Assembly: GCF_004135975.1 (NCBI RefSeq)
Contig: NZ_CP026538.1
Span: 1,240,001 to 1,304,000, forward strand
Reading direction: 5' to 3'
From: Solidesulfovibrio carbinolicus
GTDB lineage: Bacteria > Desulfobacterota > Desulfovibrionia > Desulfovibrionales > Desulfovibrionaceae
DNA length: 64,000 nt
The position numbers and the translations under genes were made by a program. Below are positions 23,509-53,818 of this stretch, piece after piece; the first letter of the stretch is position 1, and the number at the start of each line of letters is the position of its first letter. Below the pieces are notes generated by a model, which worked only from the letters and a program-made list of their open reading frames with translations, made no database searches and had not been told where the DNA came from.

Positions 23509-23584
23509 GCCAGCATAGCTCAGTTGGTAGAGCAGCTGATTCGTAATCAGCAGGTCTGGAGTTCGAGTCTCCATGCTGGCTCCA
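23509..23584 (+). tRNA. tRNA-Thr (anticodon CGT)
   Basis: The 76-nt gene folds as a complete cloverleaf: acceptor GCCAGCA / TGCTGGC, D-arm with AGCTCAGTTGGTAGAGC, anticodon stem GCTGA / TCAGC with loop TTCGTAA (anticodon CGT, reading ACG), T-arm TGGAGTTCGAGTCTCCA, and an encoded CCA end. Its 3' half is the integration target for the islands to the right. Confidence 0.96.
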
Positions 23585-43070: not shown

Positions 43071-45188
43071 ATGCAGGACAGCTACACAGTCAAGGAAATC
43101 GCGCAAGCGATGGAGGTCACGGAGCGGGCAGCGCACGCCAGGGCTGTCAAGGAGTCCTGGCCCTTCGAAGAGCAGTCCTGCCGTGGGGGCCGCCGCCGCT
43201 TGTATGTCGCCGTTTCCCTGCCTGCCGAGGTCCAGGACGCCTTGACTGCTTATGAGGGGGCAAGTCTCCCCGCCGCCGTCGCGGCCGATGAAACGGCCCT
43301 GACCGAAGACCAGCGTCGCGGTGCCCTGGCCAGGGCGGACCTGGTGCGGCTCTACACCGAAGCCATGGCCCGGGCTCCCCGCAAGGGGATAGCCCAAAAG
43401 GAATTTCTCTCGGCCTACCGGGCCGGGGTGTGGCCGAAGATCAAGGAAGTGCTTGGCGACGCGGTGTCCGCGCAATCCCTGGAACGCTGGAAGCTCAAAC
43501 TGCGCCGCACCGGTTCCGCCCTGTCCCTGGCTGACACGCGCGGCGGGGTTCATGTCGAGCCGATTCTGACCGTGGCGCACCAGACCATCATCACTGCCCT
43601 GGTCCGGCATCCCAACCAGCCGAACATCGCCGAAGTCTGCCGCGAAGCGCTCAAGGCCTTCAAACCGGCCGGCCTGCCGCCTTGCTCCGAGATCACCATT
43701 CACCGCTTCGTGAAAAAGTGGATCGCCAAGAACTACGGGGAATTCGTGTATTCGCGCAAAGGCAAGAAAGCCTGGAACGACGAATGTTGCCCCTACATCG
43801 TGCGCGACTACACCAAGATCGGCGTGGGCGACATCCTGGTGGCCGACGGCCATGCCCTCAATTTCGAGACCATCGACCCGGAGACCGGCAAGGGCACACG
43901 CATGGAACTGGTGCTCTGGTACGACATGGCCTCAAGCTACCCCCTCGGCTGGGAAATTCTGCCCACGGAAAACACGCAAGCCATCGCCTCGGCCCTGCGC
44001 CGGGCCTGCCTGCGCCTCGGGAAGTTCCCCAAAGTGGCCTATCTGGACAACGGCCGGGCGTTCAAGGGCAAGTTCTTCACCGGGGTTGACCTAGAGCAGT
44101 GCGGCCTTGGCGGCGTGTTCCAGGTGCTCGGCATAGCCACGATCTTTGCCTGGCCCTACCACGGGCAATCCAAGACCATCGAACGCTTTTTCCGGTCCTT
44201 TGGCGAGCTTGAGCGCTGGTGCCCTTCCTATGTCGGCACGTCAATCGCCACCAAGCCGCCGCGCCTCAAGCGGGGCGAGACCCTGCACCGCAAGGTCTAC
44301 GAGGCCATGGGCTACAGGCCGCTCACCCTGGAGGAAACCCACGCGGCGGTGGCCATGTGGTTTGACGACTACGTCGGGCGGCCCCAGCGCGGCCATCTGA
44401 AGGGGCGGTCGCCGCTTGAGGTCTTCCAGGAAGGAGCCGGACCGGGCCTGACCGACGCCGATTTGCTCAAGCTGCGGCTGTGTATGCTTTCCAAGGCCGT
44501 TCGGCACATCGAACAAAACGGCGTCAAACTCTTCGGGCAGCATTACCGCCACCCCTTCTTGCACAGCCTGCGCCATCCCGTCCTTGTCCGCTACGACGAC
44601 CAGGATCGGCGGACAGTGCTGGTCTACGACCAGGCCGGCAAGAACCTGATTTGCGAGGCCACCCCGGCCCCGTCTGTCCATCCTGCGGCGGCGCTGCTTG
44701 GCACGACCGAGGACAAGGCCGTGTTGGAATCCGAGATCGCCTACAAAAAGGCCCTTGAAAACCACGTCACTGCCGATGCTCGGGATTTCCTCAACACTGT
44801 CGTTCTGCCCGAGACACAACACCGGATGCGCTTGGTGGCTGCCAAGGACGCGGCCAAGGCTGCGCCGGCCGTTTCGTCGGCCCCTCGCACGCCGGACGTC
44901 AAGAGCATCGAGGCCGCCAAAAGCGCGGCCAGGGCCAAGCTCGAAGCCGCGCCGACCTATGTGCCGCCGGCGCAAATGCCCGCCATCGTCAGCGAACTCG
45001 ACCGCTACGAATACCTTTTCAACTTGGCCGTTCGGGACGGCGTGGCCCTGCGTGAGCCCGACGCCGATTGGATGGCCCGCTACGAGCAAACCGAGGAATA
45101 CGCTGCCTGCGCGGCTGGGCGTTACGCGCGCTTGCGCACGGTCTACGAACGCCGCCGCAAGGCCGCCAACGGGGGAGGAGACGCATGA
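43071..45188 (+). CDS. MuA-like DDE transposase
   Basis: The 705-residue protein has an N-terminal Mu-DNA-bind winged helix (YTVKEIAQAMEVTERAAHAR), end-binding helical domains, an RNase H-fold core with the catalytic triad D259 (LVADGHALNF), D326 (YLDNGRAFKG) and E371 (SKTIERFFRSFG), and a C-terminal beta-barrel and B-interaction region. Spacing is close to MuA (D269, D336, E392). It cuts phage ends and joins them to target DNA. It overlaps gene B by ATGA. Confidence 0.95.
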   Translation: MQDSYTVKEIAQAMEVTERAAHARAVKESWPFEEQSCRGGRRRLYVAVSLPAEVQDALTAYEGASLPAAVAADETALTEDQRRGALARADLVRLYTEAMARAPRKGIAQKEFLSAYRAGVWPKIKEVLGDAVSAQSLERWKLKLRRTGSALSLADTRGGVHVEPILTVAHQTIITALVRHPNQPNIAEVCREALKAFKPAGLPPCSEITIHRFVKKWIAKNYGEFVYSRKGKKAWNDECCPYIVRDYTKIGVGDILVADGHALNFETIDPETGKGTRMELVLWYDMASSYPLGWEILPTENTQAIASALRRACLRLGKFPKVAYLDNGRAFKGKFFTGVDLEQCGLGGVFQVLGIATIFAWPYHGQSKTIERFFRSFGELERWCPSYVGTSIATKPPRLKRGETLHRKVYEAMGYRPLTLEETHAAVAMWFDDYVGRPQRGHLKGRSPLEVFQEGAGPGLTDADLLKLRLCMLSKAVRHIEQNGVKLFGQHYRHPFLHSLRHPVLVRYDDQDRRTVLVYDQAGKNLICEATPAPSVHPAAALLGTTEDKAVLESEIAYKKALENHVTADARDFLNTVVLPETQHRMRLVAAKDAAKAAPAVSSAPRTPDVKSIEAAKSAARAKLEAAPTYVPPAQMPAIVSELDRYEYLFNLAVRDGVALREPDADWMARYEQTEEYAACAAGRYARLRTVYERRRKAANGGGDA

Positions 45189-45907
45189 AATCGGTTTTTG
45201 TGGAGACGGGCAATGTGACCGCCTTTCGGCGGGCCGTGCTGACCGTCGAGGACACCCAGCGCGGACAGCCCGGCATTGTCGTGGCCTGGGGACAGGCCGG
45301 CCGAGGCAAGACGTTTACCGCGCGTAACTCTCACTCCGAACGCGGTGGGGTCTTCCTCTCTGCCTGGGAGGGGATGACGCAAGCCGCCTTCCTGGGACGG
45401 CTTTGCAAGGAGACGACGGGAGAAAAGACAACGCCGCGTTCCGCCCATGCCTGCAAGGTTCGCATCATCGAAACCTTGGAAAAGCGGCGCGACCAGGGGC
45501 AGACCGTCACCATCTACATGGACGAGGCCGACCGCTTGCACTTCGGGCGCATCGAGGACTTGCGCGACATCCACGAGGCGACTGGCGCGGCCGTGATCCT
45601 GATCGGCGAGGAAGAACTTATTGGGCTCCTGTCCGAGCGCCGCCGAATCTGGTCCCGTGTGACCCAGGAAGTTGCCTTCGGGCCTGTGGATGAAGCCGAC
45701 ATTGCAGCCTTTGCCTTTGAAGCTGTCGGCCTCGACATGACGCCCGAAGCCTGCGCCATGGTGCGGGCCACCTCGGATGGCGACATGCGGCTGGTTCGCA
45801 ACATGGTGCAGTTGCTGGGGCAGGCGGCCAAGGCCCGCGAGACCGACAAGGTCGACGCGGCCATGGTGGCGGCGATCCAGAAGCTGAAGAGCTGGAGGCG
45901 GGCATGA
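45185..45907 (+). CDS. MuB-like AAA+ target-selection ATPase
   Basis: The 240-residue protein has a Walker A motif WGQAGRGKT, Walker B VTIYMDEADR and sensor segment AVILIGEEELI, and belongs to the MuB/IstB-type AAA+ group. MuB polymerises on target DNA and delivers it to the transposase, and protects phage DNA from self-insertion. It is shorter than MuB (312) and lacks the N-terminal HTH. Coupled to A upstream and to the next gene by ATGA overlaps. Confidence 0.9.
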   Translation: MKSVFVETGNVTAFRRAVLTVEDTQRGQPGIVVAWGQAGRGKTFTARNSHSERGGVFLSAWEGMTQAAFLGRLCKETTGEKTTPRSAHACKVRIIETLEKRRDQGQTVTIYMDEADRLHFGRIEDLRDIHEATGAAVILIGEEELIGLLSERRRIWSRVTQEVAFGPVDEADIAAFAFEAVGLDMTPEACAMVRATSDGDMRLVRNMVQLLGQAAKARETDKVDAAMVAAIQKLKSWRRA

Positions 45908-46524
45908 GAACCGAGGAGATGGATCGCCTGCGCCTGGTCATCCAGGGCCTTACGGTCAACGGCAAGGAGCCGGTCACCAATGCCCTGCTTTACGAGGCCA
46001 TGGGGTTGGACAACGAGCCGGCCAAGGCCCGGCTGCGCTCACGGATAAATGACCTCATCAAGCGCGCGGAACTGACCCGTATTGAGGACGGCAAGTACAC
46101 CTACAACCCCAAAGCCAGGGTGCGCAGCGGGGAGTTTTACCAACGGGCTTGGCGGGCCATCCGTTCGGCAAAACCTGGCTTTTCCTGGACAAGCATCGCC
46201 CAGGTGTCCCGGGTTTCCTACACCCACGTTCGGAAATACGGGCAATGGCTCCTTGATGAGGGCTTTGTAGAACGGCACGGCCGCGATGGGGCGACGCACC
46301 TTTTCCGGGCCACGCTTCGGGCCAAGGACACGGTGAACACGCCATATCCTCCCCAGGATTCCGCCGATCCTTTCGAGATCGAGCGCAACGCGGCCTGCCG
46401 ACTGGTGCGGGCCTTCATGGAGCGCGACCCCTACCAACCGGCCGTCCGCGCCAAGATCGTCGACAACTGCCGGGCCATCCTGGCCCGGTTCGAGAAGGAG
46501 GAAGAGGAGGTGTCCCATGGCTAG
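45904..46524 (+). CDS. Winged-helix phage protein
   Basis: The 206-residue protein has two wHTH-like units (ALLYEAMGLDNEPAKARLRS; SWTSIAQVSRVSYTHVRKYG) and an acidic C-terminus. It sits between MuB and Gam in the early operon. A DNA-binding role is likely; the target is unknown. Confidence 0.7.
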   Translation: MRTEEMDRLRLVIQGLTVNGKEPVTNALLYEAMGLDNEPAKARLRSRINDLIKRAELTRIEDGKYTYNPKARVRSGEFYQRAWRAIRSAKPGFSWTSIAQVSRVSYTHVRKYGQWLLDEGFVERHGRDGATHLFRATLRAKDTVNTPYPPQDSADPFEIERNAACRLVRAFMERDPYQPAVRAKIVDNCRAILARFEKEEEEVSHG

Positions 46525-47050
46525 AACGAAACCGAAGGTCGCCGTGTTGGCCGACGTCAAGGACGTGGACGCGGCCCTGGCCGAACTGGCCGGCATCCAG
46601 CGCGACGTGGCTGCCCTGGAGTGCGTCATGAACGACTCCATCGACCGGATCAAGGCCGAGGCCAAGGCGCAGTCGGAACCGTTGCTGACCCGCAAGAAAG
46701 ACCTGGAAGCGGCCCTGGCCAATTTCGCCACGGCCCGCAAGGACGATCTTTTCCCGAAAAAGAAGTCCCTGGAAATGACTTTCGGCGTCCTGGGATTCCG
46801 GCAGTCCACCAAGCTCAAGACTGCGGTGAAATGGACCTGGAAACTCGTTCTGGAACGGCTCCAGGAGCTGGCCGAAGGCGATGCGGGCAAGCCTTTCCGC
46901 GAAGCGCTGCGCACCAAGGTCGAGGTGGACAAGGAAGCCATGCGCGACTGGCCGGAAGAACGCCTGAAGACGGTCGGCGTCCGCAAGGTGGCCGAGGATG
47001 AATTCTATTACGAACTCAAGGGTGAAACGATCAAAGAGGCTGCCGCATGA
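46517..47050 (+). CDS. gam: Host-nuclease inhibitor Gam
   Basis: The 177-residue protein matches Mu Gam: a long N-terminal helix pair (VDAALAELAGIQRDVAALEC, then IKAEAKAQSEPLLTRKKDL) and a Ku-like part (KKKSLEMTFGVLGFRQSTKL). Gam binds DNA ends and blocks exonucleases such as RecBCD. GGAGGTG lies before the ATG; the start overlaps the previous gene by 8 nt. Confidence 0.93.
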   Translation: MARTKPKVAVLADVKDVDAALAELAGIQRDVAALECVMNDSIDRIKAEAKAQSEPLLTRKKDLEAALANFATARKDDLFPKKKSLEMTFGVLGFRQSTKLKTAVKWTWKLVLERLQELAEGDAGKPFREALRTKVEVDKEAMRDWPEERLKTVGVRKVAEDEFYYELKGETIKEAAA

Positions 47051-48448: not shown

Positions 48449-48865
48449 ATGAGCGAAAAGCGCGCCAAGGAAATCACCATTTTGCTTCGTAACCAGGGCA
48501 AAACCGTCAAGCTGGAACTGTTCCCGGCAACGGCTTGGGGAGGCCCGGCAGGCTGTTACCGCCTGCGCCTTGACGGCTGCTGGCACAGCCCCGGCGGCAG
48601 CAAGCACGAATTCTTCGCGCCGGGCGGCATCGCCGGGCTCGTCGTCGCGCTGGCCAGCGGCGCTCCGGTGCAGCCTGAGGAATGCCCCAGGCTTCGCTGG
48701 GGCGACCGGGTGCGCGTTCCTAACGGGACCGGCGCTTACGACAAGACCTTTGTGTCCGGCCTGCCGATCCTGGGGCTGGATGGCCGTTGGTGGGTGACGG
48801 TCACAGGCCGCGATCTGCCTGTGGCCGTGGACACGCTGCTTCGCGCGACAGGGGGTGACCAATGA
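48449..48865 (+). CDS. Phage hypothetical protein
   Basis: The 138-residue protein is mostly beta in appearance (KEITILLRNQGKTVKLELFP, RLRWGDRVRVPNGTGAYDKT, GRWWVTVTGRDLPVAVDTLL). GAAGGAAG lies upstream of the ATG. It ends with ATGA overlap to the next gene. No family recognised. Confidence 0.65.
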   Translation: MSEKRAKEITILLRNQGKTVKLELFPATAWGGPAGCYRLRLDGCWHSPGGSKHEFFAPGGIAGLVVALASGAPVQPEECPRLRWGDRVRVPNGTGAYDKTFVSGLPILGLDGRWWVTVTGRDLPVAVDTLLRATGGDQ

Positions 48866-49314
48866 GCATCATCGACGACGTCTTGAAGCTCCTGGACAAG
48901 GGCTATCTGCCCTACCAGGGGCAAATTGAAGGGCACGTCTACGAGCCCCTTGGCTGCGGCCCCAAGCGCAAGCCACGGTGGTTTTGGAAGGAGCGCAAAT
49001 ACGTTTGCCTGGGCTGCGTTAAGCGGTGCTGTCTGGTCGATCCTGTGGGATTCGAGTTGATGCTGCCAGTGACTTACCAGACGAAGAAACTGGCGTTTGC
49101 GAGCTTGCCGGCGGTTTCGGCGCGTGAATTGGTCACGAAAAAGGCGTGGTTGACGATAGCGGAAGTGGCATTTGTATTGTCTATTGGCAGAAGCAAAGTT
49201 TGGGAAATGATTCAGGAAGGGAGACTGGAGAAGCATCCGGATTCACCGCCAGCGCGAGTGCTTACGGAGAGCGTCAGGAAAGAGCTGGAGAGAACCGACG
49301 TTTATCTATCATGA
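48862..49314 (+). CDS. Phage protein with Cys-rich part and C-terminal MerR/excisionase-type HTH
   Basis: The 150-residue protein has a cysteine-rich middle (CLGCVKRCC) and, after residue 90, a helix-turn-helix of the excisionase/HTH_17 type (WLTIAEVAFVLSIGRSKVWE, IQEGRLEKHP). The last 250 bp are more A+T-rich than the first half, so the 3' part may have been exchanged. It is the last plus-strand gene before the cargo operon and could be a middle-gene regulator. Confidence 0.65.
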   Translation: MSIIDDVLKLLDKGYLPYQGQIEGHVYEPLGCGPKRKPRWFWKERKYVCLGCVKRCCLVDPVGFELMLPVTYQTKKLAFASLPAVSARELVTKKAWLTIAEVAFVLSIGRSKVWEMIQEGRLEKHPDSPPARVLTESVRKELERTDVYLS

Positions 49315-49347: not shown

Positions 49348-52299
49348 TCACTTCTTGTTCTTTTTCATAATGTTAAATGATTCATCGTAAGCTGCTTGTG
49401 CATCTTCCATACGACTATGGTCGCGGTACATATTGCCCAGGTTGTTGAGCGTCTCAGCCACTTTGGGCAAATAGGTGGCCGGATTGGTCGCGGCCAGATC
49501 ACGGTAGATCCTGAGGGCCTCTTCGTAGGCAGCCCGCGCTTCGCCCAGGCGGTTCTGGGCGCGATGTAGGTTGCCCAGATCGTTGAGCGTCATGGCCACA
49601 TAAGGTAGATAGGTGGCCGGATTGGTCGCGGCCAGATCACGAAGGCCCTTGAGGGCTTCGTCATAGGCCGACCAAGCCTCATCCATGAGGTTCAAATCAG
49701 AGAGCAGATTGCCCTGGTTATTGAGCGTCGTGGTCACATACGGCAGATAGGTGGCCGGATTGGTCGCGGCCAGATCACGAAAGACCTTGAGGGCCTTGTC
49801 GTAGGCCGACCGCGCCTCGCCCAGGCGGTTCTGGGCGCGATGTAGGTTGCCAAGATCGTTGAGCGTCATGGCCACATACGGCAGATAGGTGGCCGGATTG
49901 GTTGCAGCCAGATCACATCTAATCTTGAGGGCCCCTTCGTAGGCCGCCTGCGCCTCGTCCAGGCGGACCTGTTCGCGATGTAGGCTGCCAATATTGTGGA
50001 GTGTCATAGCCACATCCGGGAGATAGGTGGCCGGATTGGTCGCGGCCAGTTCGCGACTGATCTTGAGGGCATCTTCGTAGGCCGCCCGCGCCTCATCCAG
50101 ACGGTTTAATCGATAGAGTAAGTTGCCCAAGTTGTTGAGCGTCTTGGCCACATACGGCAGATAGGTGGCCGGATTGGTCGCGGCCAGATCGCGTCTCATT
50201 CTGAGGGCTTCTTCATAGGCCGACCGCGCCTCGTCCATGCGGTTCAACTCAGAGAGCAAATTGCCCAGGTTACTGAGCGTCATGGCCAGATCCGGCAAAT
50301 AGGCGGCCGGATTGGTCGCGGCCAGATCACGAAGGCCCTTGAGGGCCTCGTCATAGGCCGACCAAGCCTCATCCATGAGGTTCAAATCAGAGAGCAGATT
50401 GCCCTGGTTATTGAGCGTCGTGGTCACATACGGCAGATAGGTGGCCGGATTGGTCGCGGCCAGATCACGAAAGACCTTGAGGGCCTTGTCGTAGGCCGAC
50501 CGCGCCTCGCCCAGGCGGTTTATATGATAAAATAGATTGCCCAAGTTGTTGAGCGTCTTAGCCACATCTCGCAGATAAGTGGCCGGATTGGTCGCGGCCA
50601 AAACACGGAAGGCCTCGAGGGCCTCTTCGTAGGCCGTCTGCGCATCATCCATGCGGTTCAATCTCTTGAGAAGATTGCCCAGATTGTTGAGCGTAGTGGC
50701 CACATATGGCAGATAGATGGTCGGATTGGCCACGGTCAGATCACGGAAGGCCTTGATGGCCTCCTCGTAGGCCACCCGCGCCTCATCCATGCGGTTCTGA
50801 TCGCTGTGCAAGATGCCCAGGTTATTGAGCGTCTTGGCCACATCCGGGAGATAGGTGGCCGGATTGGTCACGGCCAAAACACGGAAGGCCTCGAGGGCCT
50901 CTTCGTAGGCCGCCCGTGCCTCGTCAAGGCGGTTCATACCAAAGAGCAGATTGCCCAGGTTGTTGAGCGTTTTGGCCACATCCTGGAGATAGGTGGCCGG
51001 ATCGGCTGCGGCCAAATCCCGAAAGGCCTTGAGAGCCTCCTCGTAGACCACCCGCGCCTCGTCCAATTGGTTCAAATCAGAGAACAGGTTGCCCAGGTTG
51101 TTGAGCGTTGAGGCCACCTTGGGCAGATGAGCAATTGGATTGGTTGTGGCCAGATCTCGTCTGATCTTGAGGGCCTCATCGTAGGCCGTCCGCGCATCGT
51201 TCATGCGGTTCTGAACATGATGAAGATTGCCTAGATTATTGAGCGTCGTGGCCACTTTGGGCAGGTGAGTTGCCGGATTGGTCGCGGCCAGTTCGCGACT
51301 GATCTTGAGGGCCTCTTCGTATGCCGCCCGCGCATCGTTCATGCGGTTCAAATCAGAGAGCAAGTTGCCAAACCCATTGAGTACAACAGATTTATTTGAC
51401 AAGTCCTTAGACTGAATAGCAATTATCTGACAAGTCTCGTAAAGAGGCAGAGCTTTTGCGAAGTTGTTTAAATTGTGCTCGAATCTAGCATAAGCTAATA
51501 GAGCATTAAAATTGTCCGGAACAGTATCTACGAGCTCTTGATGTACATTTTCTGCATCTGCAAACTGAAATTTGAGGGCAAACAGATTTGCTTTTAACAA
51601 ATAGGCCTCAACTACGTTCTCAATCTCCTTCTCCGCCTCTTTTTTCTTAAGCTTCGCTGCATCCATCGCTTGACGTAATCTCTCCTGGTTCAAGACATTC
51701 AGGGACGCATCAATATCCCCGCCTAAAAACAAACGCATAGCCTCCCGATAGATGTCCGACATTTGTCCCGGCTTAATGCGGGCAGCCTCTTCAGCGAATT
51801 TAGGTATAGTTGCCAAGAGGCGGTCACGCTCTTTCTGAAGACTGGCAATCTCCTTAGCCGCATCATCATTAATTTTCATCAAATCCTCAACGCGTTTTCT
51901 ATAATTAGTCTCAACAACTTCAGTGCCTTTGATGCCGTAATACAGCCTAGCCATCTCTTCGCGCGCGCTAGATTTGCAAATAACAACCAATAAAGGTTTA
52001 ATATCTGGATTATTGGGCAACACAACATTGTAAAGCTCGTAAAAATTCACAACTTCGTAATCCAACTTCTTGACTGTAACATCTGTAATATCACCAATAT
52101 TTCGAGTTTCAAAAACTAATGAAAAATCTCCAAAATTACCCGTTACAGTGTCACTCGCCCCATTTGCATGAATTTGAACATTTACGACCGCAGGCCCTCC
52201 AAGCCTATTCTCGACCACTTTACCCTTTAGCACAACAGACGCAAGACCATCACAGAAAGGATACAGTACACATATTATAATGACAGCAATGCTACGCAT
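49348..52299 (-). CDS. Exported TPR-repeat protein (prophage cargo)
   Basis: The 983-residue protein starts with a signal-like hydrophobic segment (MRSIAVIIICVLYPFCDGLA), has a carboxypeptidase-regulatory-like domain (about residues 25-95), a charged coiled coil (about 120-230) and then one degenerate plus fourteen regular 46-residue TPR units with the frame NPATYLP-VA-TLNNLGNL---NR-DEAR-AYEEAL---RDL. This is the kinesin-light-chain-like TPR type. Two units are identical after a recent 220-bp duplication. The start overlaps the upstream gene by one nucleotide (TAATG). G+C is lower than the phage average at the 5' end. Partner and role are unknown. Confidence 0.8.
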   Translation of the reverse strand: MRSIAVIIICVLYPFCDGLASVVLKGKVVENRLGGPAVVNVQIHANGASDTVTGNFGDFSLVFETRNIGDITDVTVKKLDYEVVNFYELYNVVLPNNPDIKPLLVVICKSSAREEMARLYYGIKGTEVVETNYRKRVEDLMKINDDAAKEIASLQKERDRLLATIPKFAEEAARIKPGQMSDIYREAMRLFLGGDIDASLNVLNQERLRQAMDAAKLKKKEAEKEIENVVEAYLLKANLFALKFQFADAENVHQELVDTVPDNFNALLAYARFEHNLNNFAKALPLYETCQIIAIQSKDLSNKSVVLNGFGNLLSDLNRMNDARAAYEEALKISRELAATNPATHLPKVATTLNNLGNLHHVQNRMNDARTAYDEALKIRRDLATTNPIAHLPKVASTLNNLGNLFSDLNQLDEARVVYEEALKAFRDLAAADPATYLQDVAKTLNNLGNLLFGMNRLDEARAAYEEALEAFRVLAVTNPATYLPDVAKTLNNLGILHSDQNRMDEARVAYEEAIKAFRDLTVANPTIYLPYVATTLNNLGNLLKRLNRMDDAQTAYEEALEAFRVLAATNPATYLRDVAKTLNNLGNLFYHINRLGEARSAYDKALKVFRDLAATNPATYLPYVTTTLNNQGNLLSDLNLMDEAWSAYDEALKGLRDLAATNPAAYLPDLAMTLSNLGNLLSELNRMDEARSAYEEALRMRRDLAATNPATYLPYVAKTLNNLGNLLYRLNRLDEARAAYEDALKISRELAATNPATYLPDVAMTLHNIGSLHREQVRLDEAQAAYEGALKIRCDLAATNPATYLPYVAMTLNDLGNLHRAQNRLGEARSAYDKALKVFRDLAATNPATYLPYVTTTLNNQGNLLSDLNLMDEAWSAYDEALKGLRDLAATNPATYLPYVAMTLNDLGNLHRAQNRLGEARAAYEEALRIYRDLAATNPATYLPKVAETLNNLGNMYRDHSRMEDAQAAYDESFNIMKKNKK
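49611..49830. repeat. Internal duplication in the TPR gene, copy 1
   Basis: These 220 bp recur at 50301-50520 with two differences, offset by 690 bp, exactly five repeat units of 138 bp. Confidence 0.9.
50301..50520. repeat. Internal duplication in the TPR gene, copy 2
   Basis: See the copy at 49611-49830; identity is about 218 of 220, far above that of other units, so it is recent or kept by gene conversion. Confidence 0.9.
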
Positions 52300-53123
52300 T
52301 ACAGATTCCTTGAAAGCTGAACAACCGGAGATTTTCCACGAGGAATCAAACGGCCTCGCCACACACTAAATCCATAAGCTTCGACTACCATGGATAATTC
52401 AGATTTCATTGCAAGGTCCGATGAGAGCGTTGCGACAAAGTAACCGCTCTCGTCCGAGTGTAGCGTAACTCGATCTAGAGTCACCTTGGCGTTAGAAATT
52501 GGATTTCCGTCTTCGTCCTGAACCGTGCCAGAGACAATGCATGTCATAGGACGAACAGCAAGATAAACCTCTTCACTCAAGGAGACGGAGCTGTTTATCG
52601 GCTCAAAATCAACCCCCTCCAACGACACGACAACCTCTTTCTCTCGATAACTACTTGACAGTCCTGAAAAATGCACTTGCCCCTTGGCGTCAATAGCTTC
52701 GCTTCTGCGCCCTTTTACATCCAACAGGACAACACCTTTGCTCTTTAAGACGAGGTCATTTCGCCCTTTTTCGCCATGAACGTAAATTATAACTGAGAAA
52801 TCTTCCAAGGGACGAAAAACATACCCTCCTACAAGAACAAGTGCAAAGCCGACTACAGCACCGCCGAGTTTTAATTTGCCCCCTAAAACATCGCCTTCAT
52901 ACGTACCCGATGATGGCAAAATGCCAAAAAGAAAGCCTGCAACAGAAGCAGCAAGGATACATAATATTATATAATAAATACTCCTTGCAAGTCCAAGCCT
53001 AACAATCCATTCAGCTCGTTGAATATCCTGAAAGAAGTGAATCGCTATAGATGTCCCTACAATCAAGAACAACGAAACCACAACAATTAATCTATAAGAA
53101 ATTCTAGGATTACTCTTTTTCAC
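52299..53123 (-). CDS. Membrane protein with carboxypeptidase-regulatory-like domain (prophage cargo)
   Basis: The 274-residue protein has three hydrophobic helices (LIVVVSLFLIVGTSIAIHFF, IYYIILCILAASVAGFLFGI, VVGFALVLVGGYVF), then a beta-rich part that ends in a CarboxypepD_reg-like domain (SGTVQDEDGNPISNAKVTLD, SDESGYFVATLS). It is the first gene of a two-gene operon with the TPR protein, which has a similar domain. Base composition is about 45% G+C, unlike the phage. The family is not one I recognise. Confidence 0.7.
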   Translation of the reverse strand: MKKSNPRISYRLIVVVSLFLIVGTSIAIHFFQDIQRAEWIVRLGLARSIYYIILCILAASVAGFLFGILPSSGTYEGDVLGGKLKLGGAVVGFALVLVGGYVFRPLEDFSVIIYVHGEKGRNDLVLKSKGVVLLDVKGRRSEAIDAKGQVHFSGLSSSYREKEVVVSLEGVDFEPINSSVSLSEEVYLAVRPMTCIVSGTVQDEDGNPISNAKVTLDRVTLHSDESGYFVATLSSDLAMKSELSMVVEAYGFSVWRGRLIPRGKSPVVQLSRNL

Positions 53124-53317
53124 AGCCTAGCGTCCTCCTGGGGTGGGTTTGACAGAAATCTCAACTTCTCGTTGGTCCTATTTTAAGGGAGGTCTACAGT
53201 TGCTCAAAAAACATCTCTCACATTGCTGCATTATTTTGAGTCCATTTCCGTCCAGCCGACATCTGACCTAAAACACGAAACTGTCTATGTTCACCCTATA
53301 CCTTCTGGAGGTGAAGC

Positions 53318-53818
53318 ATGACTCAATTTTCTGATACAAACATTGAAAACCACATCAAATCCGCAGCAATAAAACATGTCCAGCCGCCAGAAATCGTCCA
53401 AGCCATCGTCTCAGTTGAATCCGGTATAAACCCGTTTGCTATGCGGTTCGAGCAAATATTCTACGACCGCTACATAAAAGGCAAGCCATTATCCTTCGCC
53501 CCGCCCGGTTGCTCCAAAGATACCGAGGCCATCGGCCGCGCCACCTCCTGGGGCCTGCTCCAGATCATGGGCGAAACGGCCCGCTCCATCGGTTTTCGCG
53601 GCTGGTTCGGCGAGCTGCTGACCCCGGAAGTCGGCCTGGAATGGGGTTGCAAATATCTGGCTCGGCTGCGCGACCGGTTCCTGAATGCCGGCGGCTGGGA
53701 AGTCGTTTGTCGTGCCTACAACGGCGGTCCCGGCAATGCCCACAATCCCGCAAACACCTATCCGGCCAAGGTGCTGGCGCATCTGCCGGGCGGCGTCTGG
53801 CCGCAGGAGGGCTTTTAA
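53318..53818 (+). CDS. Phage lytic transglycosylase (endolysin)
   Basis: The 166-residue protein has an SLT-type fold with catalytic Glu34 in SVESGINPFAMRFE, the GLLQIMGETAR motif, and AYNGGPGNAHNPANTYPAKV near the end. It has no signal peptide, so it needs a holin or other export. The ATG is preceded by GGAGGTGAAGC. It opens the late gene block. Confidence 0.88.
   Translation: MTQFSDTNIENHIKSAAIKHVQPPEIVQAIVSVESGINPFAMRFEQIFYDRYIKGKPLSFAPPGCSKDTEAIGRATSWGLLQIMGETARSIGFRGWFGELLTPEVGLEWGCKYLARLRDRFLNAGGWEVVCRAYNGGPGNAHNPANTYPAKVLAHLPGGVWPQEGF

Follow-up and report, generated by a model that had tools for sequence, protein, structure and literature searches.

In the EAD-coupled conflict systems, as set out in the accessible text of Kaur et al. 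2020 (PMC7159879), a small non-enzymatic domain is present in both of two adjacent genes, with one copy on the core or sensor component and the other on the effector or signaling component, and such matching small domains are proposed to bridge sensor and effector homotypically. Here we describe a pair of adjacent genes with a comparable arrangement in a 64,000-nucleotide stretch of Solidesulfovibrio carbinolicus (contig NZ_CP026538.1, positions 1,240,001 to 1,304,000), hereafter the window, to which all unprefixed positions refer. The pair lies on the minus strand of a Mu-like prophage and encodes a small membrane protein, the partner, and a tetratricopeptide repeat (TPR) protein with a signal-peptide-like segment. 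We favor, with moderate confidence and on sequence evidence, the reading that the pair is a prophage-borne two-gene defense or exclusion module in which an exported TPR receptor would dock on an inner-membrane effector or transducer.

The likeness to the EAD-coupled systems extends to relatives of the partner, which bear TIR and EAD11 domains, whereas the window pair itself has only the three helices. The differences are that the shared domain is CarboxypepD/Ig-like and not an EAD listed in the accessible text, and that the contact between the matched copies is predicted to lie outside the inner membrane. In addition, the NTPase core described there (MoxR-vWA, STAND or GTPase) was not seen in the window pair, with no NTPase domain in the Pfam matches listed for both proteins (for the TPR protein, the best 25 of 32 families). 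With neither an NTPase seen nor a listed EAD as shared domain, we did not assign the pair to this family. The EACC1 system in the same accessible text also comprises two genes, in which the membrane component is small and conserved and the second protein varies, but the second gene of our pair carries no caspase or cyclase, and the partner has three helices and a two-domain outer part in place of one helix. TPR-GreAB-C-PIN (accessible text of Kaur et al. 2021, PMC8195603) is likewise a TPR-based conflict system, and a member occurs in a related prophage described below; as presented there, it is a single protein with the effector fused and not a pair of signal-peptide TPR protein and membrane partner. 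BASS (accessible text of PMC12261475) has matching short motifs on receptor-side and effector-side proteins, as do TPR pairs of another type than ours; it is described with NLRs, while the window pair uses a domain of ~85 residues. The open-access literature, as far as accessible and with most subscription papers lying outside it, yielded no account in which an exported TPR gene is paired with a partner of this kind.

The two genes and their parts are as follows (aa, amino acids).

52299..53123, minus strand: membrane partner gene, 274 aa, GTG start (open reading frame, hydropathy, Pfam)
52302..52805, minus strand: soluble C-terminal part of the partner, residues 107-274, with a conserved beta domain and a CarboxypepD-like domain (alignments)
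49348..52299, minus strand: TPR protein gene, 983 aa, ATG overlapping the partner stop (open reading frame)
51964..52299, minus strand: signal-peptide-like segment and N-terminal CarboxypepD-like domain, residues 1-112 (hydropathy, hhalign)
51418..51963, minus strand: charged, helical-looking linker, residues ~113-294, conserved among type I homologues
49351..51417, minus strand: fifteen TPR units of 46 aa, 14 full and one shorter (repeat analysis; Pfam TPR_12/TPR_10)

The partner consists of three hydrophobic segments (residues ~12-30, 51-69 and 84-102), followed by a beta-type domain without a Pfam family and a CarboxypepD_reg-like domain; helices and signal peptides were assigned throughout by hydropathy only. 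The whole partner just missed the PF13620 (CarboxypepD_reg) cut-off of 32.3 bits, with 32.2 bits and an E-value of 1.4e-7, and its soluble part scanned alone gave 33.9 bits and 4e-8. PF13620 was detected in 9 of 10 members of the partner family, and the Pfam matches of the partner were to CarboxypepD_reg, Ig-like or weak unrelated families and to no EAD. The same kind of domain opens the TPR protein, as its N-terminal domain matched the CarboxypepD domain of the partner with an hhalign probability of 95.6 (E 1.2e-8). An earlier note on this DNA, made from the letters alone, had described a membrane protein with a carboxypeptidase-regulatory-like domain, coupled through TAATG to a TPR protein with a similar N-terminal domain and 15 repeats. 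This description held in every part, including coordinates, strand and a junction at which the TPR start codon at 52299 overlaps the stop codon of the partner, with the shorter unit counted among the fifteen. A conserved loop, YTGKVxxGxLELGGPxV in relatives, was also seen in the three-helix region (residues ~36-105 of the partner and its homologues) and is possibly a functional site of the membrane part.

The GC content is 0.438 in the membrane gene, 0.415 in the TPR N-terminus and 0.568 in the repeat array, giving 0.504 for the pair. The linker can be aligned to a Prosthecochloris plasmid relative. The full 46-aa units average 74.6% DNA identity and two of them are 99.3% identical; from this near-identity, and from the length of the corresponding protein in a related prophage (800 aa compared to 983 aa), we infer that the array alters by recombination. 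Matches to kinesin light chain and designed TPR proteins were rejected as an identity for the TPR protein, being merely likeness of repeat fold. A housekeeping role for the pair, which the earlier note had named as one outcome that would count against its reading, was dropped as the profile searches returned no specific housekeeping family.

Searches with the window proteins themselves did not reveal the family. Single-protein scans for close relatives of the partner gave no match in IMG/VR, GTDB contigs, or phage and plasmid collections; nor did the TPR N-terminus in plasmids, phages and IMG/VR, and in IMG/VR the full-length TPR protein and an alignment of two rows were likewise without a match. 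The family was opened by a DNA pattern written for the motif NPxxYLPxVAxTLNNL of the repeats. This pattern matched 2 viral contigs and 102 genome stretches, and the resulting set of pairs is biased toward TPR neighbors because of this seeding. We counted 13 loci of the TPR type defined by N-terminal domain, linker and repeats (type I), leaving out loci with duplicate identifiers, L059 (linker and repeats, no N-terminal domain) and L124 (genome G544), where a divergent TPR/partner pair gave weak matches. The partner adjoins the TPR gene in nine of these 13 loci, with an overlap or a gap of up to ~21 bases, in several phyla, so that the survey for recurrence proposed in the earlier note found the two genes together repeatedly. 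The nine loci are listed below.

The window: Solidesulfovibrio carbinolicus
G348 (IMGVR_UViG_2540341244_000004): related Mu-like prophage
L038: Variovorax
L043: Nitrosomonas mobilis
L056: Aminicenantes
L062 and L121: one Bacteroidetes genome
L103: Chitinophagales
L019/L120: Phycisphaerae

In G348, the pair lies at the same place in the prophage and is joined by TGATG, again a one-base overlap; the partner is 54% identical to that of the window and the TPR N-terminus 46%. Variovorax has two TPR genes flanking a single partner. No partner adjoins the TPR gene in Accumulibacter (L027), Verrucomicrobia (L048 and L101, the latter cut at its 5' end) or Nitrosospira (L069, a weak match near a contig end that lacks most of the N-terminal domain). 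In searches from the partner side of sets of 200, 246 and 239 genomes, the query's own genome gave the only strong near-full-length match (in the 246-genome set, among the matches listed, beyond which weaker relatives may lie), and the 200-genome set additionally contained the divergent pair L124. As sampled in these searches, the distribution of the pair is sporadic.

This recurrence bears on the possibility that the genes are chance neighbors in a decaying AT-rich insertion, with a repeat protein that has no selected function. The recent unit duplication in the array, with its two units of 99.3% identity, is what such an insertion might show, but both frames are uninterrupted across 3.8 kb, a second prophage retains both the pair and its one-base overlap at 46-54% identity, and pairs are found in several phyla. 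The recurrence already contradicts this explanation, and we consider it highly improbable.

The N-terminal ends of the partners are interchangeable. Three helices stand there in six of the nine; in the Bacteroidetes genome, the partner of L062 has a TIR domain (9e-11) and one helix and that of L121 another globular domain and one helix, and the Chitinophagales partner has an EAD11 domain (2.3e-18) and one helix. The globular domain of L121 has a homologue in L024, a protein without helices whose gene neighbors a TPR gene (35% identity, 3e-30), and another in L104, where it is fused directly to such an array of TPR units (28%, 2e-12). We rejected the label 'DUF4062-like', given to this domain by eye, for which Pfam gave no match. 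In a further Bacteroidota relative (L164, 461-6769), ~400 residues without a Pfam match precede the three helices; by eye, this gene follows HNH-, HD-, DNA methylase- and methyltransferase-like genes. By analogy, such N-terminal swapping resembles the effector swapping of conflict systems.

The same arrangement was found with TPR proteins of other types. In a sample of 59 such proteins (at least 250 aa, with at least 500 bases available upstream), 21 have an N-terminal hydrophobic segment of their own, 9 more an adjacent small membrane gene, and 29 neither; an adjacent membrane gene is present in 13 of the 59 overall. In Thiothrix (L014), the partner comprises a SEFIR/TIR domain, a helix and a short tail, and the motif of the tail recurs in the TPR protein directly after the signal-peptide-like segment. 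Two-helix proteins accompany TPR proteins that lack a signal peptide, with related motifs, on the Prosthecochloris conjugative plasmid pPAES01 (L005) and on a viral contig (L006). The pair of L006 (4644-6562, minus strand) marks a second, unrelated viral contig, with an integrase seen by eye, and the pair of pPAES01 adjoins type I restriction genes.

We compared the partner tail with the head of its own TPR protein in 14 adjacent pairs (the 13 of other type plus L005) by using automatic cuts. The summed similarity was 550, compared to a permutation mean of 342 (standard deviation 31); none of 20,000 permutations was as high, and the own TPR protein ranked first in seven of the 14. Removal of one near-duplicate left 497 against 312, again with 0 of 20,000 permutations as high. 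Composition shared within a genome may explain part of the match. In a crude charge count, made after hydrophobic stretches within the globular N-terminal domains of four partners had been removed by hand, 17 of 21 pairs have the partner tail on the side of the TPR protein. The discordant pairs are those of L111, L028, L036 and the window; for L111 the discordance comes from a start used without its first residue.

The setting of the pair is a prophage that spans ~43 kb to at least 62.8 kb of the window. It carries the genes by which Mu-like phages are recognized, namely a DDE transposase A with the Mu C-terminal domain (phrog_310, 4e-97), the B ATPase (phrog_296, 1e-41) and Mu Gam (2e-36), together with a lysis gene, terminase, portal, protease and major head protein. 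The earlier note had called the element Mu-like and reported a switch of both strand and composition at the cargo, and these matches and values agree with it: all prophage genes tested, from transposase through major head protein, are on the plus strand and the pair is on the minus strand, and the GC content is 0.504 in the pair compared to 0.641 and 0.666 in its flanks. The surrounding features are listed below (HTH, helix-turn-helix).

43071..47050, plus strand: Mu-like early region with transposase A, B ATPase and Gam (profile matches)
48862..49314, plus strand: HTH gene, 150 aa, left border of the slot, kept in sister prophages (profile and homology)
53225..53317, plus strand: block before the lysis gene, right border of the slot, common to sister prophages (by eye; promoter-like by position only)
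53318..53818, plus strand: SLT-domain lysis gene, 166 aa, right border gene (profile and homology)

The block at 53225-53317 contains a GTCC-rich stretch, CTATG... and GGAGG, seemingly kept in L169, L170 and L203 and partly in L201 (by eye), and may be the late or lysis promoter of this Mu-like family.

Among 345 genomes of the class, 105 contain a match to the HTH gene, in many cases confined to ~60 residues. We read the slot in the ten best-matching genomes beyond that of the window (in G136, at one of two places) and in two IMG/VR records, one being G348 and the other identical to G010 across the slot; L170 and L202 hold the same slot sequence and were counted once. Recognized defense or conflict genes occupy the slot in four of nine family prophages besides the window and G348, as follows.

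G010, L202:5757-7160, minus strand: AAA_15/AAA_21 ATPase, best PADLOC matches AriA and PtuA
G004, L201:3362-7255, plus strand: 1297-aa protein with Mrr-like restriction endonuclease (weak), TPR, GreAB-C (weak) and PIN
G008, L203:4156-6891, minus strand: Mrr and NACHT protein
G039: Mrr restriction endonuclease and DndC (1e-120)

The PIN domain in G004, that of the TPR-GreAB-C-PIN system, matched with 1e-15, and the slot has a GC content of 35.5%. The contig of G039 ends inside the slot; it was kept since transposase, B and Gam precede its HTH gene. The cargo is a 156-aa exported-type protein in G009, an unmatched 212-aa protein in G007 and a zinc-ribbon membrane protein in G136, and no clear cargo was seen in the slots of G121 and G015. 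Among the nine, the SLT gene forms the right border only in G010, G004, G008 and G136; in G009, G007, G121 and G015 later family genes (a holin-position gene and terminase) are present, with no SLT match. Both borders are thus in place in these four, the window and G348, and three of the four carry defense or conflict genes. The slot measures 2.6-4.0 kb in the window, G348, G010, G004 and G008, with a GC content of 35-39% in G004, G010 and G008.

P2/P4 hotspots, in the accessible text of Rousset et al. 2022 (PMC9122126), are stretches of 1-5 kb between two conserved genes, with high turnover and many anti-phage systems. The present slot qualifies as a prophage defense hotspot, being short, bounded by two conserved genes and varied, often defensive, in content. 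It differs from those described there in P2-like, P4-like, Vibrionales and Bacillales elements in belonging to a Mu-like family and in running from an HTH gene to a lysis gene. The differing genes in sister prophages also back the view of the earlier note that this is a site of lysogenic cargo. An RnlA-RnlB pair (L209:5592-7009, minus strand) was seen beside the HTH-gene homologue of G029.

With the position in the slot and the immune-type domains of homologous partners as its basis, the defense reading of the pair is partly supported. Several results weigh against it. Five of the nine other slots hold no recognized defense gene, and G029, a candidate further member, was dropped with no other family gene in the stretches read around its HTH gene. 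In PADLOC-DB 2.0.0, no model matched the partner, and the TPR protein matched only a TPR model and gave two weaker matches. A search with the Nitrosomonas partner found no partner at E <= 0.01 in the genomes of the four partner-less TPR loci, the surroundings of the Nitrosomonas pair look by eye like housekeeping genes, and the window pair itself is discordant in the crude charge count, as a near tie (5 v 6). A partner-side search of 395 Bacteroidota genomes, in which at least six stood out, one being that of the query, belongs here as well: in three of six the partner domain lies beside exported-type non-TPR or outer-membrane-type proteins (by eye, among the matches listed), and the domain may therefore be a general envelope adaptor.

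In that event, the three-helix protein would anchor exported proteins by its Ig-like domain and the pair would change the surface or stress signaling of the lysogen, with no anti-phage role. The Bacteroidota neighborhoods, and the one pair, in Nitrosomonas, amid housekeeping-looking genes, are consistent with such an adaptor. However, the pair shares its slot with the defense genes of sister prophages, the TIR, SEFIR and EAD11 ends of partners are hardly explicable as anchors, and the sporadic distribution, with the query's own genome as the sole strong near-full-length match among those listed, also argues against it; we regard it as unlikely. In L166 (519-2731) and L168 (5383-7592), both from Bacteroidota, a three-helix partner was seen with an exported-type non-TPR protein and a small lipoprotein-like gene, and the relative in L167 has an outer-membrane-type neighbor by eye. 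No TPR gene was seen by eye beside the partner relatives of L164 and L165, and a distant homologue in G043 (26%) has no TPR gene in the 3.5 kb around it.

The prophage setting also brings up family-specific superinfection exclusion, in which the TPR protein would bind an incoming phage or its receptor and the partner would block DNA entry without cell death. The pair is prophage cargo opposite the phage genes, of exported type and membrane bound, as might be expected of such a function, and one promoter-like match lies upstream on the minus strand (53207-53180), in a region whose total of 5 is not enriched over the 4.0 of shuffled sequence. On the other hand, the TIR and EAD11 domains of partner relatives point to intracellular effectors, and the Nitrosomonas, Variovorax and Aminicenantes pairs do not have the appearance of prophage genes by eye. 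This explanation seems to us quite unlikely. The Variovorax pair lies near a Dam-like methylase (by eye).

The genome of S. carbinolicus (4.69 Mb) has two Omp85 matches, suggesting that the host is diderm and has a periplasm. In the defense or exclusion module that we favor, the TPR protein would be exported and serve as receptor or scaffold beyond the inner membrane, with the repeat array as its variable, ligand-binding part. It would dock on the partner through the matched CarboxypepD/Ig-like domain present in both. Binding of a ligand to the array, for instance of a phage part or damaged envelope, would cluster partners, whose membrane or cytoplasmic part would carry the response. For the window member, the three-helix region is the sole candidate effector, which might permeabilize or depolarize the membrane or block DNA entry; in relatives, the response would come from the same end, through TIR, EAD11 or another domain of effector type. 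A broader idea, which we put forward tentatively and hold to be somewhat short of an even chance, is a two-part surface immune receptor in the style of Toll-like receptors. It would combine an exported sensor, a matched domain or motif and interchangeable TIR, SEFIR, EAD11 or other effectors or a three-helix effector, with modules traded by Mu-like prophages.

Elsewhere in the window, the segment 24002-30893, downstream of a tRNA-Thr (23509-23584), has a GC content of 0.41-0.56 per kb compared to 0.62 for the window, and holds a WG-repeat protein, an unmatched 576-aa protein and a subtilase with a P-domain. It looks like another acquired segment.

In matched-adaptor conflict systems, the coupling copies are treated as intracellular in the accessible literature. 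If our reading of the pair is true, its coupling domain would lie beyond the inner membrane, and an event sensed at the envelope would trigger a response within the membrane or the cell. The arrangement offers a search rule, namely an exported repeat protein adjoining a membrane protein that shares its domain or motif, and the slot of this Mu-like prophage family, which collects defense genes, can be mined for further systems.

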